A stretch of 64,000 bases of DNA, from the NCBI RefSeq assembly GCF_022012305.1, contig NZ_JAKLTM010000004.1, positions 496,001 to 560,000 of the forward strand. The letters run 5' to 3'. This document shows positions 6,222-20,082 of the stretch, piece after piece. The stretch is from Ramlibacter paludis (lineage in GTDB: Bacteria; Pseudomonadota; Gammaproteobacteria; Burkholderiales; Burkholderiaceae_C). The notes under the pieces are model-generated. The model searched no databases and had not been told where the DNA came from. It saw only the letters and a list, made by a program, of their open reading frames with translations. Position numbers and translations under genes: made by a program. The stretch's first letter is position 1. Every line of letters starts with the position of its first letter.

Positions 6222-7178
6222 TCAGGAACGCCACATCCCCTGCTGCGCCATCTCGCCGACGATGCGCACCAGGTGACCCGCCACCGCCGTCACGGCGCGC
6301 GACGGCCCTTTTGCCTTGGAGAAGGCCATCGCCACGGTGCGCTGGAAAGGCGGTTCGACGATGCGCGCGGCCTGCAGCTTGCCCTCCTGGACCTCCTGCC
6401 ACACCGCGTGCAGCGGCAGCACCGTGTACAGGCCCTCCTGCGCGCTCAGCTGCTTCTGCAGCGGCAATGAGTCGGCCTCGATCACCGGCGCCAGCGCGAT
6501 GCGCGCTTGGCGCGCGCCCGCGTCGAGGGCCGTGCGCAGCCCATTGGGCGCCCCCGGCAGGATGAAAGGCAGGCCGTCCAGGCGGGCAAAGGGGACTTCC
6601 CCGCCACCCGTCACCGCGTCGCCCCGCGGACCGATCAGGTAGCTGTCCACGATGGCCAGGCTCTCCTCGCCTTCCGGCAGGTTCGGCGTGTAGCGGTACA
6701 GGATGGCGATGTCGACCCGGGCGTCGGTCAGCCACTCCTCCACCTGGCCGCTGGAGCCCTCCAGCACCTTCAGGTTGACCCCGGGCAGCAGCGAGCGGAC
6801 TTCGGCAAACAGGCGGCCGGCAAGGATGGTGCCGATCGAAGGCAGGCTGCCCAGCGTGACGGTGCCGACCGGCTCGCGCAGGTCCGCGCGGATCTCCCGT
6901 TCCAGCGCCTGGGCGCGTTCCAGCAAATCCTTGACCCGCGGAAACAGGCGCTGCCCCGCGTCCGACAACTCCACGCCGCGGCCGGTGCGGTTGAACAGCC
7001 GCGCCCCGCATTCGCGCTCGAGGGCATTGACCTGCCGGCTCAGGAAGGACTGGTTGGTGTTGAGGAACAGCGCCGCCCGCGTCAGGCTGCCCAGTTCCCC
7101 GATGGCGACGAACGAGCGCCACTTCTGCAGGTCGGCCGCGATCTGCAGTTCGAATTCGGTGGCCCTGGCTTTGTGCAT
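6222..7178 (-). CDS. LysR-family transcriptional regulator
   Basis: A 318-residue LysR-type regulator. The winged helix-turn-helix at residues 17-75 includes GELGSLTRAALFLNTNQSFLSRQVNALERECGARLF (written here only as a span), followed by the usual linker helix and a type 2 periplasmic-binding-like effector domain. Its ATG overlaps the hydrolase stop (TGATG), so it is the last gene of a Bug-hydrolase-lysR operon starting near 8937. Co-transcription with the putative target genes suggests it senses the Bug substrate or a derivative. It is the best local candidate to bind the shared promoter element at 8996-9014 and 16040-16058; that link is inference. Confidence 0.9.
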   Translation of the reverse strand: MHKARATEFELQIAADLQKWRSFVAIGELGSLTRAALFLNTNQSFLSRQVNALERECGARLFNRTGRGVELSDAGQRLFPRVKDLLERAQALEREIRADLREPVGTVTLGSLPSIGTILAGRLFAEVRSLLPGVNLKVLEGSSGQVEEWLTDARVDIAILYRYTPNLPEGEESLAIVDSYLIGPRGDAVTGGGEVPFARLDGLPFILPGAPNGLRTALDAGARQARIALAPVIEADSLPLQKQLSAQEGLYTVLPLHAVWQEVQEGKLQAARIVEPPFQRTVAMAFSKAKGPSRAVTAVAGHLVRIVGEMAQQGMWRS

Positions 7179-7972
7179 CAGGCCGGATTATCGAGCCGCC
7201 GCACCCAATCGGTGATGGCACGCGCGATGGCTTGCGGCTGTTCCGGCACCAGCGCATGGCCGGCGTTCGCGATCTCGCGCACCGTGACCTTGGCCCCGAG
7301 CGCGTCGGCCAGTTCGCCGCGCGTGGCGGGCGGTCGCCAAGGGTCCTGTGCGCCCTGCAGGTCGAGCAGCGGGGCGTTGCAGCGCGAGTACCAGTTCTCC
7401 CTGGGCGGCCGCTGGCTCGCTTCGCGGTAGGCCGTCCGCCACTGCGGGTACCAGCCTTGCAGCCAGCTGCGCGCATCGTTGCCCGGCGCGAACATGCAAA
7501 CGCGCAATGCAGCAAGGCGCTCTTCCTCGGACCGCTGCGGATCGGAAGCGACCGCGAGCGCCTCGGCCATCCCCGCAGGAAACTCGCGCGCGGCCGCACC
7601 CAGCACCACGACGCCGCGCACCTGCTGCGGATGGCGCAGGTCGGTGACGCGCGCCACCCAGTGTCCGTAGGCGTGCCCGACCACGACGGCGGGGCCGGGC
7701 GCGAGCCGGGCGATCACGGCGGCAACATCATCGGCCAGCGTCTCCAGCGTCATCCCGGCCGGGGGCGGACTGCTGTGGCCCATGCCGCGCGGCTGCGGAC
7801 GCAGCACCAGGAAGCCCTCGGCGGCCAGCAGTGCGGCCAACGCGTCGAAGTCCTCCGAATCGCGCAGCGACGAAGGCAGCAGCACGAGCGCGGGACCGCC
7901 GCCCTCGACGATGACGTCGATGCGGGCCTCGCCGAGCTGCACAAGCTCGCGGCGGCGCGGGGCTGCGCTCAT
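7178..7972 (-). CDS. Alpha/beta-hydrolase-fold protein lacking the nucleophile Ser
   Basis: This 264-residue protein has the alpha/beta hydrolase fold, but its nucleophile elbow reads GHAYG: the expected Ser is Ala101. The codon is GCC on the minus strand, so this is not a misread frame. The putative acid (AQDPW) and base (NAGHALVP) remain. It may be catalytically dead, bind ligand only, or use another mechanism. The ATG at 7972 overlaps the Bug stop by four bases (ATGA), and its own stop overlaps the lysR ATG, so the three genes are translationally coupled. The Bug partner suggests it acts on, or senses, the imported acid or ester. Confidence 0.82.
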   Translation of the reverse strand: MSAAPRRRELVQLGEARIDVIVEGGGPALVLLPSSLRDSEDFDALAALLAAEGFLVLRPQPRGMGHSSPPPAGMTLETLADDVAAVIARLAPGPAVVVGHAYGHWVARVTDLRHPQQVRGVVVLGAAAREFPAGMAEALAVASDPQRSEEERLAALRVCMFAPGNDARSWLQGWYPQWRTAYREASQRPPRENWYSRCNAPLLDLQGAQDPWRPPATRGELADALGAKVTVREIANAGHALVPEQPQAIARAITDWVRRLDNPA

Positions 7973-8937
7973 TCGACCTTGGCGCCGGACGCCTTGACGA
8001 TGCGCGCCCACTTGGGAATCTCGCTGCGGATGAGGGCCGCGAATTCCTCCGGCGTCGAGCTCGCGGGCTCGATGCCCAGCGCGACGAGCTGCCGCTTCAT
8101 GCCGGCGTCGGCCATCGCCCGGCCCACGGCCGCATGCAGGCCGGCGACGACTTCGCGGGGTGTGCCCGCCGGCGCCAGCACGCCGAGCCAGTTGGAGACC
8201 TCATAGCCCGCGAGTCCCGCTTCGGCCAGCGTGGGCACTTGCGGCAAGGCCGCCATCCGCGTGCGCGAGGTGACGGCCAGCGCCCGCACCCGCCCGGACT
8301 TGATGTGCTCCTCGTACACCGTGAACGAGTCGAAGGTGGCATCGATGCGGCCGGCCAGCAGGTCGGTCAGCAACGGCGCGCTGCCCTTGTACGGCACGTG
8401 CACCATGTCGACGCCGGCCAGGCTCTCGAACAGCGCACCCGACAGATGGCTGGAACTGCCGTTGCCGGCCGAGCCGTAGCTGATCTGGCCCGGCCTGGCC
8501 TTGGCCAGTGCCACCAGTTCGGCGACGCTGTTGGCCCTCACCGTGGCCGGGACCACCAGCACGCGAGGCGTGATGTGCGTGAGCGCGATGGGCGCGAAGT
8601 CCTTCAACGGGTCGTAGCGCAGCTTCGGATAGAGGGCCGGATTGATCGCCTGCGTTCCCATCGTCGCGAACAGCAGGGTGTAGCCGTCGGGCGGCGCGCG
8701 CGCCACGATCTCCGCCGCCAGCGTGCCGCCGGCGCCGCCGCGGTTGTCGATGACGACCTGCTGTCCCAGCTGCTCGCCCAGGTGCTGGGCCAGCCCGCGC
8801 GCCATCAGGTCGGCCGCGCCGCCCGCCGGAAAGGGCACCACCAGGCGCAAGGGCCGGTCGGGAAAGGCGGCCCAGGCAGCGAACGGGACCGTGGCGGCCA
8901 GCGCCAGCAGGGCGCGGCGGCGCATCCGAATAGGCAT
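7969..8937 (-). CDS. Bug-family (TctC) periplasmic solute receptor
   Basis: A 322-residue extracytoplasmic receptor of the tripartite tricarboxylate transporter class. The leader MPIRMRRRALLALAAT ends near AWA, and the mature start FPDRPLRLVVPFPAGG carries the family's ligand-loop signature. IDNRGGAGG and HVPYKGSAP are further family motifs. The start at 8937 is preceded by AGGAGA; an upstream ATG at 8961 lacks such a site. It is first in the Bug-hydrolase-lysR operon. Ligands of the family are small carboxylates; the specific one is unknown. A second Bug gene runs divergently from 9087, and the shared gap holds the 8986-9014 operator. Confidence 0.92.
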   Translation of the reverse strand: MPIRMRRRALLALAATVPFAAWAAFPDRPLRLVVPFPAGGAADLMARGLAQHLGEQLGQQVVIDNRGGAGGTLAAEIVARAPPDGYTLLFATMGTQAINPALYPKLRYDPLKDFAPIALTHITPRVLVVPATVRANSVAELVALAKARPGQISYGSAGNGSSSHLSGALFESLAGVDMVHVPYKGSAPLLTDLLAGRIDATFDSFTVYEEHIKSGRVRALAVTSRTRMAALPQVPTLAEAGLAGYEVSNWLGVLAPAGTPREVVAGLHAAVGRAMADAGMKRQLVALGIEPASSTPEEFAALIRSEIPKWARIVKASGAKVE

Positions 8938-8985
8938 GGCTGTCTCCTGGTTTGGTGCCACTCTAGCCCTCCGCGTGTGGCGCGC

Positions 8986-9014
8986 CTATGCATGGCGCCT
9001 GCATAGCAGCCTTG
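8986..9014. promoter_or_regulatory. Operator/promoter element shared with 16040-16058
   Basis: Read on the minus strand, 9014-8996 is CAAGGCTGCTATGCAGGCG, identical over 19 bases to 16040-16058. In both cases 58 bases separate it from the start codon, with a TAGAGT- or GAGAAT-type -10 box 22 bases before that codon. An overlapping perfect inverted repeat, CTATGCA-N7-TGCATAG, covers 8986-9006. The layout suits an activator such as a LysR protein. Confidence 0.7.
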
Positions 9015-9050
9015 CACGAACGGCACATAGCCGGCGCGCAGCGCGGCTCC

Positions 9051-9056
9051 TAGACT
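9051..9056 (+). promoter_or_regulatory. Probable -10 box (TAGACT) for the 9087 operon
   Basis: TAGACT lies 30 bases before the ATG at 9087, with AGGAGA (9071-9076) between. The -35 position (about 9028-9033) is poor, which fits an activator-dependent promoter next to the 8986-9014 element. Confidence 0.45.
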
Positions 9057-9086
9057 GCAGGCCAGAACCCAGGAGACAAACCCACC

Positions 9087-10064
9087 ATGCTGCGCACCCG
9101 CCGCCTTCTTTCCGCCGCCCTCGCCCTCTGCGCCAGCGGCTCCCTGCTCGCCCCCGCTGCCCATGCCCAGGCTTGGCCCGCCCATCCGATCAAGCTGATC
9201 GTTCCGTACGCGGCCGGAGGCCCCACCGACGCCATCGCCCGCCTGCTCGCGACGAAGATGGCCGCGACGCTGGGCCAGCCGGTGGTGGTGGACAACCGCG
9301 CCGGCGCCGGCGGCACCATCGGCGTCGATGCCACCGTCAAGGCGGCCGGCGACGGCTACACCTTCGCGCTGGTCGCGCCCGGCCCGCTGGCCGGCATGCC
9401 CAACCTGATGAAGGCGCCTTACGGGCTGGACGACATCCAGTACCTGACCCTCGTCGCCAAGATCCCCAGCGTGCTGGTGGTGAACAGCAAGTCGGGCATC
9501 GACTCGCTGGAAGCGCTGGTGAAGAAGGCCAAGGCCGAACCCGGCAAGCTGAGCTACAGCTCGGCCGGCCCGGGCACCACGCCGCACATCGGCATGGAAA
9601 TCTTCAAGGACCAGGCCGGGGTGCACCTGCTGCACGTGCCGTACAAGGGCGCGGCGCCGGCCGTGACCGCGCTGCTGGCCGGCGAAGTGAACGTGACGAT
9701 GGTCGACCTGCTGCCGGTGCTGCCGCACGTCAACGCCGGCACGCTCAAGGTCCTGGCCGTCGCCGCCACCACCCGCGCCCCGCAGCTGCCGAACACACCG
9801 ACCACCGCGGAAAAGGGACTGCCCGGCGTGATCATGGAAACGACCTACGGCCTGATCGCCCCCAAGAGCCTGCCGCCTGCGATTGCCGCCAGGCTGCGCG
9901 ACGCCGCGGTCGCCGCCGTCAATGCGCCCGAGATGAAGCAGCAGTTCCTGGCCCAGGGCGCGCTGCCGGTCACGTCCACCCCGGCCGACTACCAGAAGCT
10001 GATGCTGGCCGAATCGGACAAGTGGAAGAACATCATCGGCAAGGCGAAGATCACGCTCGAATGA
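9087..10064 (+). CDS. Bug-family (TctC) periplasmic solute receptor
   Basis: A 325-residue receptor with a clear Sec leader (hydrophobic stretch to PAAHAQA) and mature start WPAHPIKLIVPYAAGGPTD. DNRAGAGGTIG and HVPYKGAAP are family motifs. AGGAGA precedes the ATG by 10 bases. Its stop overlaps the start of the enolase-superfamily gene (ATGA at 10061-10064), so receptor and enzyme are coupled. It diverges from the Bug operon at 8937. No TctA or TctB membrane gene is seen, so it must dock to membrane proteins encoded elsewhere. Confidence 0.93.
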   Translation: MLRTRRLLSAALALCASGSLLAPAAHAQAWPAHPIKLIVPYAAGGPTDAIARLLATKMAATLGQPVVVDNRAGAGGTIGVDATVKAAGDGYTFALVAPGPLAGMPNLMKAPYGLDDIQYLTLVAKIPSVLVVNSKSGIDSLEALVKKAKAEPGKLSYSSAGPGTTPHIGMEIFKDQAGVHLLHVPYKGAAPAVTALLAGEVNVTMVDLLPVLPHVNAGTLKVLAVAATTRAPQLPNTPTTAEKGLPGVIMETTYGLIAPKSLPPAIAARLRDAAVAAVNAPEMKQQFLAQGALPVTSTPADYQKLMLAESDKWKNIIGKAKITLE

Positions 10065-11140
10065 AGATCGCCGCCGCCACGCTGGCGTCCTGTACGCAGG
10101 CGCTGGCCGACCCCCAATGGAAGTTCGCGCGCGCTCAGGTGCCGCGGCTGGAGGGCTGGGCGCTGCGCCTGCGGGACGAGGACGGCCACGAGGGCCTCGG
10201 CTACTGCCACGCCATCCCGGCCATCTCCACCCACGGCGCCGGCGCCGAAGCGGGGCTGGCGTTCCTGGCGCCGCGGCTGGTGGGCCGCCCGGTCGACGAC
10301 GTGGCCGCGGCCATGGAGGAGATCGACGCCACCCTGGCCTACCAGCCGACGGTGAAGGCTGCCATCGACATGGCGCTGCACGACCTGCTGGCGCGCCGCC
10401 TCGGCGTGGGCGTGCACGTGCTGCTCGGGGGCAAGCTGCGCGATGCGGTGCCGCTGTCGCGCATCCTGCCGATCAAGGCGCCCGACGAGATGGCGGCCAT
10501 CGCGGCCCGGCTCGCCGGCGAGGGCTACCGGCAGCTGAAGCTCAAGCTGTCGGGCGACACGGACACCGACGTGCAGCGGGTTGCCGCCGTGCGCGCCGCC
10601 GCGGGCGACGCCGTGGCCCTGACGCTGGACCCCAACCAGTCGTACAACGCCAAGCAGATGATGGTCGCCTTCGGCCGCATGGAGCGTTACGGCATCGCCC
10701 TGATCGAGCAGCCGGTGCCGGCCGCCGACTTCGCCGGCCTCGCGCTGCTCACGCGGACGCTGCCGGTGGCGATCGAGGCCGACGAGAGCGCGCAGAGCGT
10801 GCGCGACGTGTTCCGCCTGGTGACGGAGCGCGCTGCAGATGTGATCAACCTCAAGGTCACCAACCTGGGCGGCATCCGCCGCTTCCTGCAGGCCGTGCGC
10901 CTCTGCGAGGCAGGCGAAGTGGCCTGCCGCATGGGTGCGGCTTTCGGGCCGTCCCTGCTGCAGGCAATGAGCCTGCAATGCGCCAGCGTGATCCGCCGCC
11001 TGCCGCATGCCTGCGAGCTGTCGGAACACCTGCATCTGCTCGACGACCCTTTCACGCCGCTGCCGGTGCAAGATGGACAACTGCGGCTGCCCGAAGGGCC
11101 GGGCTGCGGCGTCACCTACAGGAACCTGGAACCCGCTTGA
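10061..11140 (+). CDS. Enolase-superfamily enzyme, muconate-lactonizing/mandelate racemase type
   Basis: A 359-residue TIM-barrel enzyme that should abstract a proton alpha to a carboxylate. The capping domain spans roughly residues 1-120. The catalytic KxK is LKLKL (Lys160, Lys162). Metal ligands are expected at Asp in TLDPNQ, Glu in LIEQPV and the acid in EADES. A second barrel Lys is Lys265 in INLKVTN. A Lys on both barrel faces places it nearer the muconate lactonizing/dipeptide epimerase subgroup than to mandelate racemase (which uses His). It is flanked by Bug receptors with overlapping codons at both ends, so its substrate is probably the imported carboxylate. Confidence 0.87.
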
Positions 11141-12102
11141 ACAAGAAACTCCGCCACACCGCCGCCCTGCTGCTGGCCGCCTGCGCACTGGGCGCGGCGG
11201 CGCAGGACTATCCGAACCGGCCGCTGCGGCTGGTCGTGCCCTTCGCCCCCGGCGGCGGCGCCGACATCGTCGCGCGCGCCGTGGCCGCGCCGCTGGCCAA
11301 GCGCCTGGGCCAGCCGGTGGTGGTCGACAACAAACCGGGCGGCGGCGCCACGCTGGGCGCCGACCTCGTCGCCAAGGCGCCGGCCGACGGCTACACGCTG
11401 CTGTACACGACGCCGGGACCGCAGATGGCCAATCCCTACCTGATGGCCAAGCTGCCCTACGACCCCGCGCACGACCTGGTGCCCGTCTCCGAGGTGGCGA
11501 TCGTGCCCAACGTGCTGGTCGTGAACAAGGACCTGCCGGTGCGCAACCTGAAGGAGTTCATCGCCTACGCCAAGGCGCATCCGGGCAAGGTCAATTTCGC
11601 CAGCGCCGGCCAGGGCGCGAGCAGCCACCTGGCCGGCGAGCTGTTCAAGCAATCGGCCGGCGTCTTCATCGTCCACATCCCCTACCGCGGCACCGGCCCG
11701 GCGCTGACCGACCTGCTGTCGGGGCAGGTGCAGATGGCCATCGACAGCATTGCCGTGTACAAGTCGCACATCGACAGCGGCGCGCTGCGCGCGCTCGGGG
11801 TCGCCACCGCGAAACGCTCGCCGCTGCTGCCCAGCGTGCCCGCCATCGCGGAGGCGCTCCCGGGATTCGAGGCGGCGCCGGTCAACTACATCTCGGTGCC
11901 GGCGAAGACGCCGCAGGCCGTGATCGACCGCCTGAACCGCGAGATCAATGCGGTGCTGCAGTCGCCCGAGCTGAAGGAGCAGCTGGCCGCCGGCGGCGTG
12001 CTGCCCCAGGGCAGCAGCCAGGCCGAGATGGCCGCCCTGATTCGCAGCGAGGCGGCCAAGTGGAAGAAAGTGATCGAAGTCTCCGGCGCGAAGCTGGACT
12101 GA
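11137..12102 (+). CDS. Bug-family (TctC) periplasmic solute receptor
   Basis: A 321-residue receptor. The TTG at 11137 overlaps the previous stop (TTGA) and gives a proper leader: basic NKKLRHT, hydrophobic ALLLAACALG, cleavage near AAAQD. The mature start YPNRPLRLVVPFAPGGGAD is typical. No ATG or GTG gives an intact leader here, so a TTG start is likely. It is the third Bug gene within 4 kb and lies in the same operon as the 9087 receptor and the enolase-superfamily enzyme. The two receptors may serve related ligands. Confidence 0.9.
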   Translation: MNKKLRHTAALLLAACALGAAAQDYPNRPLRLVVPFAPGGGADIVARAVAAPLAKRLGQPVVVDNKPGGGATLGADLVAKAPADGYTLLYTTPGPQMANPYLMAKLPYDPAHDLVPVSEVAIVPNVLVVNKDLPVRNLKEFIAYAKAHPGKVNFASAGQGASSHLAGELFKQSAGVFIVHIPYRGTGPALTDLLSGQVQMAIDSIAVYKSHIDSGALRALGVATAKRSPLLPSVPAIAEALPGFEAAPVNYISVPAKTPQAVIDRLNREINAVLQSPELKEQLAAGGVLPQGSSQAEMAALIRSEAAKWKKVIEVSGAKLD

Positions 12103-12124
12103 AGACCAGGAAGAGGACCCTGCC

Positions 12125-12901
12125 ATGAACGACCTGACCCAGCTCGAAGTGAGCATCGCAGACTTCGTCGCCACGCTGACGATGAACGCGCCGCCCGTCA
12201 ATGCGCTGACCCGCACCCTCAACGACGAATTGACGCTGGCGCTGGACCGCATCAGCGAAATGGACGACGTGCGCGCGGTAGTGCTCACCGGCGCCGGCAA
12301 GGTGTTCTGCGCCGGCGCCGACCTGAAGGGCCGCGCCGAGGTCATCAAGGGCCCGGGCGACCTGCCGGCCCATTCGCGCCGCACCCGCGAGTGCTTCCAC
12401 GCCATCCGCGAATGCGCGAAGCCGGTGGTGGTGGCGATCAACGGTGCCGCGCTCGGTTCCGGCCTGGCGATGGTGGCGTCCAGCGACATCCTTGTCGCCT
12501 CCGAGAAGGCATCGCTCGGCATGCCGGAGGTGGACGTCGGCTTGCTGGGCGGCGGCCGCCATGCGATGCGCCTGTTCAGCCACTCGCGGCTGCGGCGCAT
12601 GGCCCTGACCGGCATGCGCGTCCCCGGTGCCGAGCTGTACCGCCTGGGCGTGGTGGAAGCCTGCGTCGCGCCGGAGGAACTGATGCCCACCGCCCTGGAG
12701 ATCGCGCGCACCATCGCCGCCAAGAGCCCCATTGCCACGCGCATGTTCAAGCACACGCTCAACACCATCGAGGACATGAGCCTGCGCGACGGCTACCGCT
12801 ACGAGCAGGACATGACGGCGCAGATCGGCAAGACCGAGGACGCCCGCGAAGCGCAGCGCGCCTTCGCCGAGAAGCGGGCCCCGGTCTTCACCGGGCGCTG
12901 A
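12125..12901 (+). CDS. Enoyl-CoA hydratase/isomerase (crotonase) family protein
   Basis: A 258-residue crotonase-fold enzyme acting on acyl-CoA thioesters. GKVFCAGADLKGR (59-71) and NGAALGSGLAM (107-117) form the CoA and oxyanion sites. By alignment in my head to mammalian hydratase, the second glutamate is kept (Glu135 in MPEVDVG), but the first position is Ala115. A single acid suggests an isomerase, a lyase or a retro-aldol type rather than a classical hydratase. GAGGACC precedes the ATG. It lies 22 bases after the Bug gene and before an acyl-CoA dehydrogenase, so it is likely part of the same pathway. Confidence 0.88.
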   Translation: MNDLTQLEVSIADFVATLTMNAPPVNALTRTLNDELTLALDRISEMDDVRAVVLTGAGKVFCAGADLKGRAEVIKGPGDLPAHSRRTRECFHAIRECAKPVVVAINGAALGSGLAMVASSDILVASEKASLGMPEVDVGLLGGGRHAMRLFSHSRLRRMALTGMRVPGAELYRLGVVEACVAPEELMPTALEIARTIAAKSPIATRMFKHTLNTIEDMSLRDGYRYEQDMTAQIGKTEDAREAQRAFAEKRAPVFTGR

Positions 12902-12971
12902 GCTGTCGCTCGGGTGATCGACAAGGCCCGCGGGAGCGGGTCCAATGGCTTCGTCGTCCCCAGGAGAGCCC

Positions 12972-14201
12972 ATGTTCGCCGAACCGTCCCCCAAGTCCGC
13001 GGAGCTGCTGCAGCGCCTGCGCGCCTTCTACGACCAGCACATCTACCCGAACGAGGAGCGCTACCACCGCGAGACGGACGAATTCCGGCGCCAGGGCAAC
13101 CCCTGGCAGGTGGTTCCCGTCATCGAGGAACTGAAGCCGAAAGCACGCGCGGCCGGCCTGTGGAACATGTTCCTGCCGCACCCGTACCAGGGTAACGGCG
13201 GCGTCTCCAACCTCGACTACGCGCCGCTGTGCGAAGTGATGGGCCGCGTGTCCTGGTCGGGCGAGGTCTTCAACTGCTCGGCGCCCGACACCGGCAACAT
13301 GGAAACGCTGGAGCGCTACGGAACCGAGGCGCACAAGGAGCAGTGGCTCAAGCCCCTGCTGGCCGGCGAGATCCGTTCGGCCTTCCTGATGACGGAGCCC
13401 GCGGTGGCGTCGTCCGACGCCACCAACATCCAGTGCTCGATCCGCCGCGACGGCGACCACTACGTGATCAACGGCCGCAAGTGGTTCTCCTCGGGCGCCG
13501 GCAGCCCGCGCTGCAAGATCTTCATCGTGATGGGCAAGACCGACCCCGATGCGCCGCGCCACGCGCAGCAGTCGATGGTGCTGGTCCCGCGCGACACGCC
13601 GGGCGTCACGGTACTGCGGCACCTGTCGGTGTTCGGCTACGACGACGCGCCGCACGGCCACATGGAAGTCGCGCTGGAGAACGTGCGCGTGCCGGTGGAA
13701 AACATCCTGCTGGGCGAAGGCCGCGGCTTCGAGATCGCGCAGGGCCGCCTCGGCCCCGGGCGCATCCACCACTGCATGCGTTCCATCGGCGCCGCCGAGC
13801 GCGCGCTGGAGCTGATGTGCGACCGCCTGCAGAAGCGCATCGCCTTCGGCAAGCCGCTGGCCGAACAGTCGGTCTGGCACGAGCGCATCGCCGAGTCGCG
13901 CTGCATGATCGACCAGGCCCGCCTGCTGACGATGAACGCGGCGTGGAAGATGGACACCGTGGGCAACAAGGTCGCGCGCGCCGAGATCGCGATGATCAAG
14001 GTGGTCGCGCCCAACATGTCGTGCAAGGTCGTGGACTGGGCCATCCAGGCCCACGGCGGCGGCGGGGTCAGCCAGGACTTCTGGCTGGCCGAGGCCTATG
14101 CCCACCAGCGCACCGTGCGGCTGGTGGACGGCCCCGACGAAGTGCACCGCAACGCCATCGCCAAGCTGGAGCTGGCAAAGGCCAAGGCCAAGGCGCTGTG
14201 A
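12972..14201 (+). CDS. Acyl-CoA dehydrogenase, ACAD10/11-like
   Basis: A 409-residue FAD-dependent acyl-CoA dehydrogenase passing electrons to ETF. The start at 12972 follows AGGAGA closely; a longer start at 12945 lacks that site. [14 protein letters not shown] is the flavin-binding loop region and [11 protein letters not shown] the C-terminal FAD contact. The end reads [19 protein letters not shown], the form found in ACAD10/11 relatives, which handle long or 4-hydroxylated chains in animals. It follows the crotonase by 70 bases and converges with the tannase-family gene across a hairpin. Confidence 0.92.
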
Positions 14202-14206
14202 GAGGA

Positions 14207-14225
14207 GCCGGCCCGCAAGGCCGGC
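14207..14225. terminator. GC-rich hairpin between convergent genes
   Basis: GCCGGCC and GGCCGGC arms (7 bp) surround a five-base loop between the acyl-CoA dehydrogenase stop and the end of the tannase-family gene. No T run follows, so it may stop transcription only weakly, from either side. Confidence 0.5.
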
Positions 14226-14235
14226 CCCGCATCCC

Positions 14236-15972
14236 TCAGTCGACCGTGCAGCGGTAGCTCGCCGCCAGCTTCGCGTCGCCCGCGACGTAGCGCGGATAGG
14301 CCGGGTAGCGGCACATCGGGCGCGTCGCGCTCACGGTGTACGGCGGCAGCGCCTGCTTGGCACTCACCTCCGGCGCGTCCGGGGGCACGGCGTTCTTCTC
14401 CACCCAGTCGGTCGACAGCCGGATCAGGTCCACGTACTGCGGTTCCGGCGTGCGGGCCGGCAGGCTCTGGACGCCGCCGTTGTGGTCGCCGTTGGGCAGC
14501 ATGTAGAAGCGCACGTGGCTGTCGACGTCCTTCTGGCCGAAGCGGCCGACCAGCGTGTCGTACCAGCGCATGACCGTGTGCGGGTTCGACGAATAGTCGG
14601 AACCCTGCGCCTTGATGATGAGGCGGCCGCCGCGCGCGAAGAAGCGGCTGAGGTCGGTGTTGGTCGAATCGATGAGCGCCGACGCGTCGACGATGCGGTC
14701 CTTGAACGCGGCCACCGAGAAGTTCACCAGGTTGAAGGCCGGGTCCTTGAGGATGCCGTAGCTCACGGTCGCGCCCGGCTGCCCCAGCGCCGGCTGCGCG
14801 GCCTGCGAAGGTTGCGGCGAGATGTTCAGCCAGCCGCCCTCGGATTCGCGGCCCGCTTCGTAGCCCGGGAATTCGGTCCAGCCGTTGGCCAGCGCGAAGC
14901 CGAAGCGGGTGGGCGCGTGCATCTGGTTCAGCGTGGCGATCTGGCTGTCCGACACGCAACTGTTGCCGGTGTCGGAGCCGCCGGCGCAACGGATGGCCGC
15001 GAAGGGCTGCGCCACCTTCTGCGGGTCGAAGCGCGCGGCGCAAGCCAGGTAGTTGCCGATGACGCCGTCGGTGAGGCCGTCCAGGCTGTCGCACTGGCGC
15101 AGCACTTCGGCGCCGATGGCGGCCTGCTTGGCCGGTGGGATCCAGCCCGCGCCGGACTGCACCGTGGCCAGCAGCGTCTTGTGCACCACGTGCGCCGTGT
15201 AGCCGATCAAGGGCGAGGTCGCGACCACGCCGTCGTAGTCCTCCGGATAGCGCTGCGCCACTTCCATGGCTTCGCGGCCGCCTTGCGACTGGCCCATGAA
15301 GTAGCTGACGCGCGGCCGCGATGCGTAGAGCGCCTGGATGATCGCGAAGGCGGCGTCGTGCGTCTTCTTCAGGCCCGCGTGCGCGAAGTTGACCCAGGCT
15401 TCCTGGTTGAGGGCCCACGTCGCGGTGTTGCCCGGATCCTGGTGGCCGGAATCGCCCCCGAACATCGCATAGCCGCTGGAAAGGGGATAAGGCGCGTCCG
15501 GCGGAAAGGCGCCGGAGATCGGCGAGCCCGACGTGCCCACCGCCGCCAGGTTGGCCGGGATGGACCCGTCGAGGCCGCCGCCGCCGACCTGGATGGTCTT
15601 CTGGTTCCACTGGGTGGGCACATTGAGCTGGAACTTGATCGGCGGCGCGGCCGGATCCACCGGCCGGATCGAGCCGAGGATGCGGCAGTATTCCGGCAGC
15701 GCGCGCGTGACGCTGGTGGCACCCACCTGTTCCGGCGCGGCGGCCACGACGCTGGCCGCGTCGATCGAAACGCCGCTGGTCGGCAGCGCGATCGCCGAAG
15801 CCGGCAGCGCGGTCCCGGCCAACGACGTGCAGGAAGTGGTCGGTGTCTTCATCGCGAGCGCGCTGGTGTCGACGAACGCGGGCTGGTCGATGCCCGCGCT
15901 CGCGCCGCCGCAGCCGCTGGCGGCCAGTGCAAGAAGGGCCGCCGCGGCCAGCGCCATCTGCTTCATCGTCAT
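14236..15972 (-). CDS. Tannase/feruloyl esterase family protein, lipoprotein
   Basis: A 578-residue exported esterase of the PF07519 type. The leader MTMKQMALAAAALLALAASGC has a lipobox-like end with Cys21, so it is probably a lipoprotein. The nucleophile elbow is FMGQSQGG (Ser229), followed by AQRYPEDYDGVVATSP, a strong family signature. The acid is likely in QGSDYSSNP and the base His in NGDHNGG. In most family members the Ser and His are each next to a Cys that forms a disulfide; here both positions are changed (Gln228 and Asn). AGGAGA precedes the ATG, and a TAGATT -10 box lies at 15999-16004 (minus strand). It would release acids from esters outside the cytoplasm. Confidence 0.88.
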   Translation of the reverse strand: MTMKQMALAAAALLALAASGCGGASAGIDQPAFVDTSALAMKTPTTSCTSLAGTALPASAIALPTSGVSIDAASVVAAAPEQVGATSVTRALPEYCRILGSIRPVDPAAPPIKFQLNVPTQWNQKTIQVGGGGLDGSIPANLAAVGTSGSPISGAFPPDAPYPLSSGYAMFGGDSGHQDPGNTATWALNQEAWVNFAHAGLKKTHDAAFAIIQALYASRPRVSYFMGQSQGGREAMEVAQRYPEDYDGVVATSPLIGYTAHVVHKTLLATVQSGAGWIPPAKQAAIGAEVLRQCDSLDGLTDGVIGNYLACAARFDPQKVAQPFAAIRCAGGSDTGNSCVSDSQIATLNQMHAPTRFGFALANGWTEFPGYEAGRESEGGWLNISPQPSQAAQPALGQPGATVSYGILKDPAFNLVNFSVAAFKDRIVDASALIDSTNTDLSRFFARGGRLIIKAQGSDYSSNPHTVMRWYDTLVGRFGQKDVDSHVRFYMLPNGDHNGGVQSLPARTPEPQYVDLIRLSTDWVEKNAVPPDAPEVSAKQALPPYTVSATRPMCRYPAYPRYVAGDAKLAASYRCTVD

Positions 15973-16022
15973 GCTGTCTCCTGGGTAGTGGAGCTGCGAA
16001 TCTAGGAGCGCGGCGTCGTCCG

Positions 16023-16072
16023 GCCTAGGCGGGTTCCGTCAAGGCTGCTATGCAGGCGGCCCGCCTAGGCGG
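16023..16072. promoter_or_regulatory. Twin GCCTAGGC palindromes flanking the shared 19-bp element
   Basis: GCCTAGGC occurs at 16023-16030 and inside the 12-bp palindrome CCGCCTAGGCGG at 16061-16072. The centres are exactly 40 bp apart, about four helical turns. Between them lies CAAGGCTGCTATGCAGGCG (16040-16058), identical to the element upstream of the 8937 operon. This control region serves the CoA-transferase gene (ATG 16117) and possibly the divergent esterase gene. Confidence 0.7.
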
Positions 16073-16116
16073 ACGCGGCCGCGAGTCCGAGAATGCAGGG
16101 CATCCAGGAGATTCCC

Positions 16117-17346
16117 ATGAGCACCGCCGCCGGCCCGCTGTCCCACGTCAAGGTCCTCGACCTGAGCCGCATCCTCGCGGCGCCCTGGGCCGGCCAGATC
16201 CTGGCCGACCTGGGCGCCGAGGTCATCAAGGTCGAGAGGCCGGGCGCCGGCGACGACACGCGCACCTGGGGCCCGCCCTTCCTGAAAGACGCCGAGGGCC
16301 GCGACACCAAGGAAGCCGGCTACTACCTCGCGGTGAACCGCGGCAAGCGTTCCATCACGGTGAGCCTGGAAAAGCCCGAGGGCCAGAAGATCGTGCGCGA
16401 GCTGGCCGCGCGCGCCGACATCGTGCTGGAGAACTACAAGGCCGGCACGCTGGCGCGCTACGGCCTGGACGAGGCCGCGCTGCGCAAGGTGAATCCGCGC
16501 CTCATCTACTGCTCGGTCACCGGCTTCGGCCAGACCGGACCACGCCGCGACCAGCCGGCCTACGACTTCCTGATCCAGGCCATGGGCGGCCTGATGAGCG
16601 TGACCGGCGAGAAGGACGGCAAGCCGGGCGGCGGTCCGCAGAAAGTGGGCGTGCCCATCGTCGACCTGATGACGGGCATGTACACGGCCGTCTCGGTGCT
16701 GGCCGCGCTGGCGCGCCGCAACGAGACCGGCGTCGGCGGCAACATCGACATCGCCATGCTCGACGTGCAGGTGGCCACGCTGGCCAACCAGGCGATGAAC
16801 TACCTGGTCTCGGGCAAGGTGCCGCGACGCAACGGCAACGCGCATCCCAACATCCAGCCGCAGGACGTGTATTCCTGCGCCGATGGCGACGTGATCCTCG
16901 TCGTGGGCAACGACGGCCAGTTCGCGCGCCTGTGCCAGGTGTTCGCCAAGCAGGAGTGGGCCACCGACCCACGCTTCGCCACCAACGCCCAGCGCGTGCG
17001 CAACATCGGCGAGCTGTCGGCGCTGCTGCGCGACGAGTTCGCCGAATGGGAGCGCGAGAAGCTGATCGCCGCGCTCGACACGGCGGGAGTGCCCTGCGGC
17101 CCGATCAACACCGTGGCGGACGTGTTCAAGGAGCCGCAGGTGAAGGCGCGCGAGATGCTGCGCCACGTGCCCCATCCCGCCGGCGTGGACGTGCCGCTGG
17201 TGGCAAGCCCGATCCGCTTCGAGGGCGAAGCCTTGCCGATCCGCTCGGCCCCGCCGCTGCTGGGCGAGCACAGCGCCGCCATCCTGGCGGAACTCGGCTA
17301 CGCCGGCGCCGACATCGAGGCCCTGCGCCAGGCGGAGGTGATCTGA
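16117..17346 (+). CDS. CoA transferase family III (CaiB/BaiF)
   Basis: A 409-residue class III CoA transferase, which moves CoA between carboxylic acids through an aspartyl-CoA intermediate. LDLSRILAAPWAGQILADLGAEVIKVE is the conserved N terminus (residues 12-37, given as a span). The catalytic Asp is likely in VPIVDLMTG near residue 185. AGGAGA precedes the ATG at 16117. The GST-like gene follows with a one-base overlap (TGATG). The promoter has the shared 19-bp element, so it is probably expressed together with the 8937 operon. Its role would be to activate the imported acid for the acyl-CoA enzymes at 12-14 kb. Confidence 0.93.
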   Translation: MSTAAGPLSHVKVLDLSRILAAPWAGQILADLGAEVIKVERPGAGDDTRTWGPPFLKDAEGRDTKEAGYYLAVNRGKRSITVSLEKPEGQKIVRELAARADIVLENYKAGTLARYGLDEAALRKVNPRLIYCSVTGFGQTGPRRDQPAYDFLIQAMGGLMSVTGEKDGKPGGGPQKVGVPIVDLMTGMYTAVSVLAALARRNETGVGGNIDIAMLDVQVATLANQAMNYLVSGKVPRRNGNAHPNIQPQDVYSCADGDVILVVGNDGQFARLCQVFAKQEWATDPRFATNAQRVRNIGELSALLRDEFAEWEREKLIAALDTAGVPCGPINTVADVFKEPQVKAREMLRHVPHPAGVDVPLVASPIRFEGEALPIRSAPPLLGEHSAAILAELGYAGADIEALRQAEVI

Positions 17347-17963
17347 TGGCCGGCCCGCTGATCCTGCACTGGTCGCCCAAGTCGCCTTACGTGCGCAAGG
17401 TGATGATCTGCGCCCACGAGCTCGGCCTGATTCCGCGCCTGGAGCTGGTCCGCTCGGTCGCGGCGATGCTCAAGCCGAACCCGGCCATCATGGCCGTCAA
17501 CCCGCTGTCGAAGATCCCGACGCTGGTGCGCGAGGACGGCAGCACGCTGTTCGACTCGGTGGTGATCTGCGAGTACCTCAACGACCTGGCCGGCGGGCCG
17601 CTGTTCCCGGCGCAGGGCGAAGCGCGCTGGCAGGCGCTGCGCTGGCACGCCTTCGGCGACGGCCTGCTGGATGCGCTGATCCTGTGGCGCAACGAGCGCG
17701 AGCGGGTCACGCCGCTGCAGCCGCTGCTGGACGCGTTCGAGCTGAAGGCGCGGGCGTCCTTGAAGGAGCTGGATGCGGAAGCGCAAGCGCTGGCGCAAGC
17801 GCCGTTCACCATTGGGTCGCTCACCGTCGCCTGCGCACTCGGCTACCTGGACTACCGCTTCGATGCCTTCGGCTGGCGCGCACAGGCCCCGCGGCTGGCG
17901 GCCTGGTTCGCGGGCGTGAGCACCCGGCCCTCGCTGCAGGCCACGGCCCCCGTCGACGGCTAG
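17346..17963 (+). CDS. Glutathione S-transferase family protein
   Basis: A 205-residue protein with an N-terminal thioredoxin-like GST domain (HWSPKSPYVRKVMICAHELGL) and the NPLSKIPTLVREDG segment with the cis-Pro of the glutathione site, then DSVVICEYL and an all-helical C-terminal domain. Ser in SPKSPY may be the catalytic residue; Tyr and Cys options are not evident. It overlaps the CoA-transferase stop by one base. In such clusters GST-like proteins act as isomerases, lyases or ether-cleaving enzymes, but the sequence does not say which. It converges with the amidohydrolase gene 12 bases away. Confidence 0.85.
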   Translation: MAGPLILHWSPKSPYVRKVMICAHELGLIPRLELVRSVAAMLKPNPAIMAVNPLSKIPTLVREDGSTLFDSVVICEYLNDLAGGPLFPAQGEARWQALRWHAFGDGLLDALILWRNERERVTPLQPLLDAFELKARASLKELDAEAQALAQAPFTIGSLTVACALGYLDYRFDAFGWRAQAPRLAAWFAGVSTRPSLQATAPVDG

Positions 17964-17975
17964 CGCTGCCGCGGG

Positions 17976-18797
17976 TCAGCGGTACAGCTGTTCCGCATTG
18001 GTACCCAGCACCTGCCGCACGACGGCATCGCTGCCGGACCAGTCCATGAACATGTCCAGCAGTTGCACCGTGTCCGGCGCCGGGGCCACGCGCAGGTGCG
18101 GCCAGTCGCTGCCCCACACCAGGCGCTCGGGGTTCGCGGCCACCAGTGCCTGCTGGAACGGGCGACCCGCTTCCCAGTCGCTTTCCTGCAGCAGGTTGCG
18201 GTAGGCGCACAGCTTCACCCACACCCGGCCAGACTCGAGCAGCGCCAGCAAGGTGCGAAAGCCCGGGTCGTCCACGCCCGCCTGCACGTCGAAGCCGCCC
18301 ATGTGGTCGATGACGACCGGGACCGGCAGCGAGCGAATCTGCTGCGCGATCGCCGGCAGCGCGCGGCAATCGGTCCAGAGCTCGGCATGCAGTCCCGCAT
18401 CGGCGAGCTGCGGGGCGAGCGCGCGCAGGTCCTCGAAGGACGCGCTGCCGGCGAAATTGGCGCCGGCGCCGCTGCGATGGCTGAAGCGCGCACCGCGCAC
18501 GCCTTGCGCGCGCAAGCCCGCCAGGGGCAACGCGCTGCCGGGCCGCACCACCACCACGCCGCGCAGCGTGTCCTGCGCAGCCAGCGCGTGCAGCAGCAGC
18601 GAATGATCGTCGCCGTAGGCGCTCGGGTGGACCAGCACGCCGTGGGTGAGGCCCAGGCGCCGCAGCAGCGCCATGTACTGCGGCTCCATCGCCTCCGGCG
18701 GCGTGTAGCTGCGCTCGGCCGCCAGCGGGAAGCGTTCGTAGGGACCGAACAGGTGGGCGTGGCAGTCCCAGCCGCCCGACACGTTGGCTTCGCTCAT
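17976..18797 (-). CDS. Metal-dependent hydrolase, amidohydrolase superfamily (LigI-like)
   Basis: A 273-residue TIM-barrel hydrolase. DCHAHLFGP at residues 11-19 gives the first metal/substrate His pair, VIDHMGGFD the barrel His, and VWGSDWPH the C-terminal Asp. These match 2-pyrone-4,6-dicarboxylate lactonase and related lactonases. Its ATG overlaps the AhpD-like stop (ATGA at 18794-18797), so the pair is translationally coupled. Lactone opening fits a cluster that also holds a muconate-lactonizing relative and a carboxymuconolactone-decarboxylase-like protein. The exact substrate is unknown. Confidence 0.87.
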   Translation of the reverse strand: MSEANVSGGWDCHAHLFGPYERFPLAAERSYTPPEAMEPQYMALLRRLGLTHGVLVHPSAYGDDHSLLLHALAAQDTLRGVVVVRPGSALPLAGLRAQGVRGARFSHRSGAGANFAGSASFEDLRALAPQLADAGLHAELWTDCRALPAIAQQIRSLPVPVVIDHMGGFDVQAGVDDPGFRTLLALLESGRVWVKLCAYRNLLQESDWEAGRPFQQALVAANPERLVWGSDWPHLRVAPAPDTVQLLDMFMDWSGSDAVVRQVLGTNAEQLYR

Positions 18798-19366
18798 GCC
18801 AGCTCGCCCTGCTGCGGCAGTGCGAAGGCCGGCCGAACGCCCTCGGGCAGCGGGATCTCGTGGCAGTTCAAGGTCATGGCGACCATCGTGTAGTAGCCGA
18901 TGAGGGCGGTCAGTTCCACCACGGTGCGTTCGCCGAAGCGCGCGAGCGCCGCGGCATAGGTGGCGTCGGAAACGGACTTGTGGCGATTGAGTTCGACGGC
19001 ATAGCGCCAGACCAGCGCGTCGTCCGCCGTGAGGCCGGGCGGCTCGACCTGCGCCAGCAGCGCATCGAGGATCGCGGGCTCTATGCCTGCCTTCTCGCCC
19101 TCGATGCGGTGCGCATACCACTCGAAGGGCGAGTTGCAGGCGCGGCCGGTCACGAGGATGGCGATCTCCGACAGGCGCGGCGGCAGCGAGGTGCCATAGC
19201 GCAGCAAGGCGCCCAGCGCCTGCCACTTGTCGGCCAGCTCGGCGTTGTGCAGCACCGCGCGCAGCGGCCCCTGGATCTTGCCGCGCGGGCCGGAGACGAT
19301 CTTGTCGTAGACCGCCTTCTGGGCGGCGTCCATCTGGCCGGGGGATGGCAAGGTGATGCGGGGCAT
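18794..19366 (-). CDS. Carboxymuconolactone decarboxylase (AhpD-like) family protein
   Basis: A 190-residue all-helical protein of the CMD/AhpD family. The core segment GRACNSPFEWYAHRIEGEKAGI lies near residues 94-115 (span only) and carries Glu, His and one Cys, but not the CxxC of peroxidase-type AhpD. It may therefore be a decarboxylase or lactone-handling protein rather than a peroxidase. It is first in a two-gene operon with the LigI-like hydrolase. The upstream gap has a weaker copy of the shared promoter element (19412-19429). Confidence 0.85.
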   Translation of the reverse strand: MPRITLPSPGQMDAAQKAVYDKIVSGPRGKIQGPLRAVLHNAELADKWQALGALLRYGTSLPPRLSEIAILVTGRACNSPFEWYAHRIEGEKAGIEPAILDALLAQVEPPGLTADDALVWRYAVELNRHKSVSDATYAAALARFGERTVVELTALIGYYTMVAMTLNCHEIPLPEGVRPAFALPQQGELA

Positions 19367-19411
19367 GGATCCATCATAGGCAGCGCCCCACGCCCCCGTG
19401 GCCGCCGTCCG

Positions 19412-19429
19412 GCAACCCTGCTATGCGGG
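19412..19429. promoter_or_regulatory. Degenerate copy of the shared promoter element
   Basis: GCAACCCTGCTATGCGGG resembles the exact element at 9014-8996 and 16040-16058, with the CTGCTATGC core kept and the flanks changed. It lies about 50 bases upstream of the AhpD-like start, in the opposite orientation to the other two relative to the gene. Its core is nearly palindromic, so orientation may not matter. Function is inferred only. Confidence 0.4.
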
Positions 19430-19443
19430 AAGCTGCAAGGCGG

Positions 19444-20082
19444 CTAGCGCGCCTTCGCCGGCGCCCGCCCCGCGATCGCCGCATCCAGCAGCGCCGTCGC
19501 CATCGCCTTCGCCGCCCCCGCCGAGGCGACGTTCCCGTCCATCTGCGCCGACACCAGCGCGCCGTCGTAGAGCATCACCAGCTGCTGCACCAGCGTCGGC
19601 ACGTTGCGCGCGCCCGCTTCCTTCGCCAGTTGCGTGAAGAGCGACCGGATGTAGCCACGGTAGTCGTCGCAGACCTGGCGCGTGCGCTCGCCGCCCGGCA
19701 ACTCCGAATTCGCCATCAGGAAGGCACAGCCGCGAAAACCCGGCGTGGCGAAGGTGTCCGCCATGGCGTCGAAGACGGCCAGCAGCTGCTCGCGCGGTGC
19801 CTCGTGCTGCGCGATCTTGGCTTCGATGCGCCGGCGCCGGGCCTCGCCCTTGCCCTCCAGGTAGGCGCGCACCAGTTCTTCCTTGCTGCCGAAGGTGGCG
19901 TACAGCGAAGCCTTGGCGACGCCGGCATGGGCCAGCACGCGGTCGATGCCGACGCTGTTGATGCCCTCCCGGTAGAAAAGCTCGTCGGCGGCGGCAAGCA
20001 GGCGCTCGCGCACGGGCAGCCGCTCGGCCGTGGAGGCGTTGGGGGCCGGGTTCTCGGTTCGGGTCGCGGATCTCGTGGACAT
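19444..20082 (-). CDS. TetR-family transcriptional repressor
   Basis: A 212-residue repressor. The N-terminal helix-turn-helix (residues about 20-65) contains INSVGIDRVLAHAGVAKASLY and the FGSKEELVRAYL helix, followed by a ligand-binding domain with AFLMANSELPGG. I start it at 20082 (MSTRSA); a longer ATG at 20118 would place coding sequence across both operators. Perfect palindromes at 20096-20109 and 20123-20136 lie in the gap to the divergent MFS gene, so it should repress both itself and the exporter, with a drug-like compound as inducer. Confidence 0.92.
   Translation of the reverse strand: MSTRSATRTENPAPNASTAERLPVRERLLAAADELFYREGINSVGIDRVLAHAGVAKASLYATFGSKEELVRAYLEGKGEARRRRIEAKIAQHEAPREQLLAVFDAMADTFATPGFRGCAFLMANSELPGGERTRQVCDDYRGYIRSLFTQLAKEAGARNVPTLVQQLVMLYDGALVSAQMDGNVASAGAAKAMATALLDAAIAGRAPAKAR

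Follow-up and report, generated by a model that had tools for sequence, protein, structure and literature searches.

A 15-bp dyad facing mirrored promoters is a probable LysR operator in a catabolic gene cluster of Ramlibacter paludis and related Burkholderiales

The window analysed here is a 64,000-nucleotide stretch of the Ramlibacter paludis genome (contig NZ_JAKLTM010000004.1, positions 496,001 to 560,000), and it carries two exact copies of a 19-bp element. These 19-mers are very probably operators of the LysR-type regulator encoded at 6222-7178. Their cores (operators A and B) and a third site (operator C) would control five proposed operons, which are Bug1-hydrolase-LysR, Bug2-MLE-Bug3-ECH-ACAD, a tannase-family gene, CaiB-GST and CMD-amidohydrolase. 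In these names, Bug denotes a TctC-type solute-binding protein, MLE a muconate-cycloisomerase-like enzyme, ECH an enoyl-CoA hydratase family protein, ACAD an acyl-CoA dehydrogenase, CaiB a class III CoA transferase, GST a glutathione S-transferase and CMD a carboxymuconolactone-decarboxylase/AhpD-like protein. Sequence comparison shows the sites and their conservation, the fixed spacing to the -10 hexamer and the co-occurrence with the LysR gene. Binding by this protein, activation and the involvement of an inducer are what we infer from them.

The 19-mer (CAAGGCTGCTATGCAGGCG) is located at 8996-9014 on the minus strand and at 16040-16058 on the plus strand. The window contains exactly these two copies and no third match at up to 3 mismatches, and 100 shuffled controls gave a mean of 0.03 matches, with none reaching 2. 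Both copies are intergenic between divergent genes. The first lies between Bug1 (start 8937, minus) and Bug2 (start 9087, plus), and the second between the tannase-family gene (start 15972, minus) and CaiB (start 16117, plus). An initial annotation of this DNA had described the exact element ahead of the genes at 8937 and 16117, each 58 bases from the start codon and with a -10-like box 22 bases from the codon, and these observations hold at both copies. The string from the 19-mer through the ATG measures 80 letters (19 + 58 + 3), TAGAGT on the 8937 side and GAGAAT on the 16117 side each end 22 bases before the ATG, and AGGAGA precedes both start codons. The count of two promoters was too low, because the genes at 9087 (plus) and 15972 (minus) also face the 19-mers. 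A scan of the genome for the 19-mer had been proposed as a check. In the 4,993,032 bases, it occurs exactly at 2 places, at none with 1-2 mismatches and at 4 places with 3 mismatches. A dispersed repeat is ruled out by the presence of only 2 genome places within 2 mismatches. A search of 61 genomes at up to 2 mismatches gave 16 places, 2 of which were the window's own, with a key that includes 5 non-conserved bases.

The conserved core was obtained from relatives with the window excluded. Expectation-maximisation on 88 upstream regions from 22 LysR loci of relatives recovered GCAAGGCTGCTATGC, the core of the 19-mer, at a log-likelihood ratio of 483.6, compared with 55.1 for a shuffled-letter control (one set, fewer starts). 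An estimated 79% of the 88 regions carry a site. The motif has the skeleton GCAW-NN-CWG-NN-WTGC and forms an imperfect 15-bp dyad with GCA and TGC arms. Positions 2 and 14 of the dyad are C (0.96) and G (0.97), and the 15-mer contains no T/A pair at positions 12 apart. The window was scored with the matrix built from relatives only. Operator A (GCAAGGCTGCTATGC, 9001-9015, minus), the core of the first 19-mer, ranks highest at 25.2 bits, and operator B (TCAAGGCTGCTATGC, 16039-16053, plus), the core of the second, follows at 23.6 bits. Operator C (GCAACCCTGCTATGC, 19412-19426, plus), ahead of the CMD-amidohydrolase operon, ranks third. The initial annotation had located this copy correctly (19412-19429), but its description as degenerate was wrong. 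Operator C is a full-strength site, because it reaches 22.8 bits, compared with 11.2 bits for the fourth independent position; a Markov background yields 0.13 matches of at least 18 bits per 64 kb. Its orientation is that of most CMD promoters in relatives.

Each site is placed at a nearly constant distance from the -10 hexamers that it faces. On the two sides of operator A, TAGAGT of the Bug1 operon (8960-8965, minus) and TAGACT of the Bug2 operon (9051-9056, plus) are both 43 bp from the site centre, with the -35-like hexamers TAGGCG (8983-8988) and TAGCCG (9028-9033). Operator B has GAGAAT of the CaiB-GST operon at 43 bp (16089-16094, plus; -35-like TAGGCG, 16066-16071) and TAGATT of the tannase-family gene at 42 bp (15999-16004, minus; -35-like TAGGCC, 16022-16027). 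The CMD-amidohydrolase operon has TATGAT (19373-19378, minus) 41 bp from the centre of operator C. Across 92 site-gene pairs (87 from relatives and 5 from the window, representing 74 distinct promoters), the distance from the site centre to the start of a -10-like hexamer is most often 42 bp (39% of pairs), followed by 43 bp (20%) and 41 bp (7%); no other distance from 20 to 94 bp exceeds 5%. With a looser threshold, a -10 at 41-43 bp is found in 67 of the 92 pairs and 67 of the 74 distinct promoters, and twelve other three-base slots give 0-16 pairs, the larger counts being at 51 bp and beyond. The distance from site centre to start codon ranges from 53 to 178 bp in relatives, with pairs admitted at 40-190 bp. 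The conserved spacing claimed in the initial annotation is therefore true for the window's two copies, but relatives conserve the distance from site to -10 and not the 58 bp to the ATG. The trinucleotide TWG occurs 23 bp upstream of the -10, which is the -35 place with a 17-bp spacer, in 29 of the 67 promoters; none of 21 other offsets has it in more than 2 of 67. TAG occupies this place in all four promoters of A and B, and the CMD promoter has no TWG there. The trinucleotide may represent the -35 itself or a secondary contact. The site is predicted, from the -10 position, to lie at about -54 from the transcription start, upstream of the -35.

Two further features of these promoters were observed. 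The sequence GCCTAGGCGG flanks operator B on both sides (16023-16032 and 16063-16072, 40 bp apart), and each copy overlaps one of the two divergent promoters at its -35 place. The -10 of CMD ends 6 bases before the ATG (19364-19378, minus), as it does in Ramlibacter terrae (locus L064, about 19192-19206, minus). The CMD mRNA is predicted to be leaderless in both, starting at about the A of the ATG; the CMD promoters of other relatives have longer leaders.

The distribution of the motif follows that of the regulator. MLE was detected (E 1e-60) in 7 of 200 genomes of the family, the own genome among them, and LysR in 17 of 399 genomes (E 1e-100) and 8 of 59 genus genomes (E 1e-80); the cluster is therefore patchy. 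Named genomes were scanned with an MLE alignment, and 80 loci were kept. The first 27 (L064-L090) were used, and the other 53, with 28-36% identity and nearly all from non-Proteobacteria, were left out. After removal of two duplicates (L069 and L070, identical to L059 and L062) from 44 mapped loci, 42 remained, 22 of which contain a LysR of at least 60% identity with varying sets of cluster genes. In these 22 loci (427,137 bases), 63 of 75 matches of at least 14 bits lie no more than 320 bp ahead of a cluster gene and 3 lie inside such a gene, a result that is in part built in, since upstream regions of the same loci supplied the training data for the matrix. The other 20 loci (388,656 bases) have 15 such matches, of which 6 precede a cluster gene. 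Eight of the 15 fall in L059 (contig C319 of G128) and L073, two loci from genomes with a LysR elsewhere. A LysR search in the genomes of 24 named loci gave a match at E 1e-50 in 14. The 10 loci without one (L077, L079-L086 and L089) show two matches of 14.4 bits and none higher, a thin control in that only L079 and L086 have the wider cluster. Locus L086, from a Massilia metagenome-assembled genome, has a near-complete cluster at 10001-16114 (MLE, hydrolase, ECH, amidohydrolase, CMD, CaiB and GST). In L086, this LysR was not found and no site reaches 14 bits.

The exact pattern GCAWNNCWGSTATGC has 36 distinct occurrences in 16 LysR-bearing genomes, is present in 15 of them and falls within or beside the cluster at 25 of these places. 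Among the 25 is a CaiB/Bug1 pair on a G128 contig (L210) that was found via the motif alone. Five of the 11 places outside the cluster were viewed as loci, and no cluster gene was present at the site. In 16 genomes without LysR (E 1e-100), the pattern occurs at 16 places in 6 genomes; the 10 places given as loci have no cluster gene adjoining the site. In the own genome, 12 one-mismatch places elsewhere have no cluster homologue within 3-kb loci. A reversed-pattern control was set aside because the reversed pattern differs in dinucleotide make-up. LysR is also the sole regulator seen in the open reading frame (ORF) families common to at least 4 of 22 loci (the window and 21 relatives). These families were defined at 55% identity over 100 residues; antisense shadows blurred the survey, and gene families were sorted afterwards.

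The motif and its geometry recur in loci that were not used for motif discovery. This held-out set comprises 11 loci with LysR of 59-84% identity, five of which came from the LysR search in the genomes of named loci; some are mutually close, such as two Pigmentiphaga loci. A site is present in 10 of the 11, and of the 23 matches that reach 14 bits, 21 precede cluster genes. The -10 is found at 41-43 bp in 21 of 27 held-out site-gene pairs. In all three Advenella loci (LysR 51-53%), the palindrome GCAATTCWGAATTGC, noticed by eye first, precedes MLE (L072:9848-9862, L076:9852-9866 and L088:9853-9867) with TATCAT at +42. It has the same skeleton and was missed by the matrix; the helix-turn-helix of the Advenella LysR is nearly unchanged. 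The co-occurrence with the motif, its being the only regulator seen in the shared ORF families and the fixed distance from site to -10 support the earlier suggestion that the LysR at 6222 is the likeliest common activator. Relatives also support the suggestion of a regulon joining uptake, hydrolysis, CoA activation and ring or lactone opening, here refined to five putative target promoters.

In the proposed mechanism, LysR would bind the 15-bp dyad GCAW-N7-WTGC as its primary site, with the predicted transcription start approximately 54 bp downstream, and the bound protein would touch the -35 side. Together with an inducer, it would help RNA polymerase at a sigma-70-type promoter. A target promoter would combine a good -10 at 42 +/- 1 bp from the site centre with a poor -35 (TAGGCG-like, 17-bp spacer). 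Because LysR lies in the Bug1 operon, which is itself a proposed target, induction would be expected to raise LysR itself in a positive feedback.

Several observations weigh against assigning the sites to this LysR. The T-N11-A that marks the classical LysR box is absent from the dyad. The exact pattern does not occur in G191, a genome that encodes the LysR, and no position in the held-out locus L233 (LysR 62%) reaches 14 bits. The genomes of L068, L071, L075, L078 and L090 encode a 62-69% LysR away from MLE, but near MLE a match that reaches 14 bits ahead of a cluster gene is present only in L071 (17.2 bits); the regulon therefore does not always include MLE. The counts are not independent, since many of the loci are related, and the training of the matrix noted above belongs to the same reservations. 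The 41-43 slot was picked after the first promoters had been viewed, though the held-out set repeats it. Finally, the better arm of the dyad is promoter-distal in 63 of the 92 pairs, and a -10 is present in 57 of these 63 compared with just 10 of the 29 in the opposite orientation, the 'same' class to which the window's Bug1 and CaiB belong. This orientation effect also favours a variant in which the sites are LysR operators but serve mainly for repression, or in which activation is limited to some of the five promoters, the partner at each shared site being repressed or indifferent. According to PMC4834489, a classical LysR activates one divergent side and represses its own gene on the other. 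We consider the variant unlikely for the window, as both sides of A and B have a -10 at 42-43 bp and TAG at the -35 place with a 17-bp spacer. A centre near -54, on the upstream side of a weak -35, is moreover an activator position in the LysR family, which also counts against repression.

Binding of the sites by another protein, such as the TetR-type product of 19444-20013 or a factor encoded outside the cluster, is very unlikely. Operator C is directly behind the TetR gene, but TetR is in none of the ORF families common to at least 4 of the 22 loci. In the 10 genomes without LysR at E 1e-50, moreover, no match near MLE reaches 15 bits, two of these loci having the wider cluster. The probability that the 19-mer reflects chance or a functionless dispersed repeat is practically negligible, given its 2 genome places, the de novo recovery of the motif in relatives, the fixed -10 distance, its recurrence in the held-out loci and the conservation of its position in other genera.

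Operators A and B each face two promoters, with the -10 boxes 42-43 bp on either side of the dyad. In the whole sample, 25 sites are flanked by two cluster genes and represent 18 divergent gene pairs. Five of the 18 have one site with a -10 at 41-43 bp on both sides (including A and B), seven have two sites, one per promoter, and six have one site with a -10 on one side only. Pigmentiphaga loci L228 and L229 (ECH/CMD) show the shared mirror design as well. In L064, L065 and the genus-mate G490, the Bug1 and Bug2 sites are separate and 32-34 bp apart, and the alignment with these loci contains a single 31-33-base gap in the window at the place of the Bug1/Bug2 sites, as if two sites had collapsed into one at A. 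We tentatively propose, at a confidence well below even, that two structural promoters arranged in mirror image are both activated from a single LysR dyad, a layout that at A of this genome seems to have replaced a design with one site per promoter. A LysR tetramer is expected, from the usual mode of the family, to reach the -35 of one side at a time. The paired operons would therefore be activated alternately, or by a symmetric complex; we know of no symmetric LysR complex on two promoters described for the family.

Separate paired sites were observed in eleven loci (L062:7872-7908, L063:11397-11433, L061, L064, L065, L060, L161, L163, L164, L167 and L168). They are spaced 22, 32, 34, 35, 42 or 52-53 bp, most of them near whole helical turns. 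In L058 and L066, LysR and Bug2 diverge from a region that contains a site, the arrangement common for LysR genes; in the window, LysR is instead the last gene of the Bug1 operon. The tannase gene is relocated among relatives. In the window (14236-15972), it is located between ACAD and CaiB, and its relative in G490 (L241, 13800-15386, 79%) follows LysR as part of the Bug1 operon; L161 has a 72% relative transcribed divergently from LysR, and a site lies between the two genes. Behind the ACAD stop, GCATCCC at 14229-14235 aligns as a possible remnant of an old CaiB operator, which is not claimed on 7 bases.

The exact identity of the two 19-mers could mainly be the trace of a recent promoter copy and not of strict selection, which would be compatible with the operator reading. 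A Bug2-type promoter would have come along when the tannase gene moved beside CaiB. We regard this history as possible but rather doubtful. Core positions 2-15 would be the same in two sites drawn independently from the matrix with a probability of 0.006, and five further bases agree between the copies. The tannase promoter scores best with Bug2 promoters (50.0 with L064 and 49.5 with the window, row median 29.0), and the G490 tannase relative behind LysR has no site of its own. However, the CaiB promoter across operator B scores almost as high with the tannase promoter (48.5), the -10 region on the CaiB side resembles that of L064, and the motif core is conserved in other genera. A shuffle control does not discriminate, since the Bug2/tannase and Bug1/CaiB pairs both beat 2000 of 2000 shuffles because all share constrained elements.

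The genes of the cluster were assigned primarily by Pfam. The Bug1 operon comprises Bug1 (7969-8937, minus; TctC), an alpha/beta hydrolase (abH, 7178-7972, minus) and the LysR-type regulator (6222-7178, minus; HTH_1 and LysR_substrate), the proposed binder of A, B and C, whose orthologues in relatives have 59-89% identity. The divergent operon contains Bug2 (9087-10064, plus; TctC), MLE (10061-11140, plus), a member of the enolase superfamily, Bug3 (11137-12102, plus; TctC), ECH (12125-12901, plus; NCBIfam PRK06495 above cut-off) and ACAD (12972-14201, plus). We take the Bug/TctC group to be COG3181. The tannase/feruloyl-esterase family protein (minus; Pfam Tannase) is followed by CaiB (16117-17346, plus; CoA_transf_3) and GST (17346-17963, plus). 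The last operon encodes CMD (18794-19366, minus) and a LigI-like amidohydrolase (17976-18797, minus; Amidohydro_2). The Pfam CMD match is just under the cut-off (22.6 versus 23 bits, on 18794-19333), and the probable start at 19366 is based on comparison with relatives. The nearest solved relatives are muconate cycloisomerases for MLE (best PDB entry 3i4k, E 1.3e-42), LigI for the amidohydrolase (4d8l, E 2.5e-31) and MHET hydrolases for the tannase-family protein (8ekg, E 3.2e-40). The CatB-like MLE scores below the NCBIfam cut-off, and no CatA- or CatC-like Pfam match was found among the 20 predicted proteins of 2075-22152. The pathway probably takes up an ester- or lactone-linked acid, dicarboxylic or aromatic-derived, and breaks it down in a CoA-dependent manner.

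Compared with described LysR systems, the regulon shows both common and distinct features. The BenM/CatM sites at benA and catB of Acinetobacter baylyi, as given in PMC6628147, are ATAC-N7-GTAT with T-N11-A present. They resemble the sites described here in serving LysR-type regulation of a catabolic cluster through a 15-bp dyad of two 4-bp arms and a 7-bp spacer, and in a poor -35, seen there at catB. At the BenM/CatM sites a second contact region lies over the -35, as may be the case here. They differ in the targets, in the T-N11-A that is C-N11-G here, and in their recognisable Sites 2 and 3, for which just TWG at the -35 place is seen here. The predicted -54 position is closer than the usual LysR primary site near -65 stated in PMC4834489. 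That source also describes ThnR (thnB/thnC), like the proposed regulator a single LysR-type activator of several operons with two close divergent structural promoters; unlike the single dyad of the window, predicted at -54 for both promoters, each ThnR promoter has a separate primary site at -64 or -76. The closest parallel is CatR* of Comamonadaceae (Suvorova and Gelfand 2019; PMC6449761), a predicted LysR-type regulon of related bacteria with CatB-like and COG3181 targets. CatR* has a T-N11-A palindrome, CatA and CatC targets and usually a divergent gene of its own. It is set apart by motif and targets as described, not by protein sequence, and could be the same regulator. A description of this regulon or gene combination was not found in the open-licence literature searched, an absence that is weak evidence. 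The system is a new LysR regulon of a known type, and its less usual features are the C-N11-G dyad and the single sites for mirrored promoters.

Sequence alone thereby gives a definition of a LysR regulon in several Burkholderiales genera, covering its operator, its promoter geometry and its members. Bug-type uptake, a tannase/MHET-hydrolase-family enzyme, a CoA transferase and ring- or lactone-opening enzymes are tied into one probable pathway. The fixed distance from site to -10 provides a means of finding further members on broken assemblies, as in one genome, and the shared mirror-image site offers a compact system for asking if one LysR tetramer activates two promoters.

Some relatives carry additional genes in their clusters. 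Ten of 21 ORF family members matching no known cluster gene were scanned with Pfam, giving 3 flavin reductases (L163:2223-2942, L165:17009-17866 and L169:17340-18140), 2 porins (L063:11063-12598 and L169:11969-13549) and 5 without a match; neither a flavin reductase nor a porin was found among the cluster genes of the window. In L064, LysR, Bug2, Bug3, ECH, GST and CMD are each split into two matches, which suggests frameshifts in this sequence. Locus L087 is labelled Pantoea, yet its cluster arrangement and its Bug2/CaiB and CMD site sequences are those of the Acidovorax locus L067, so that the label looks doubtful.

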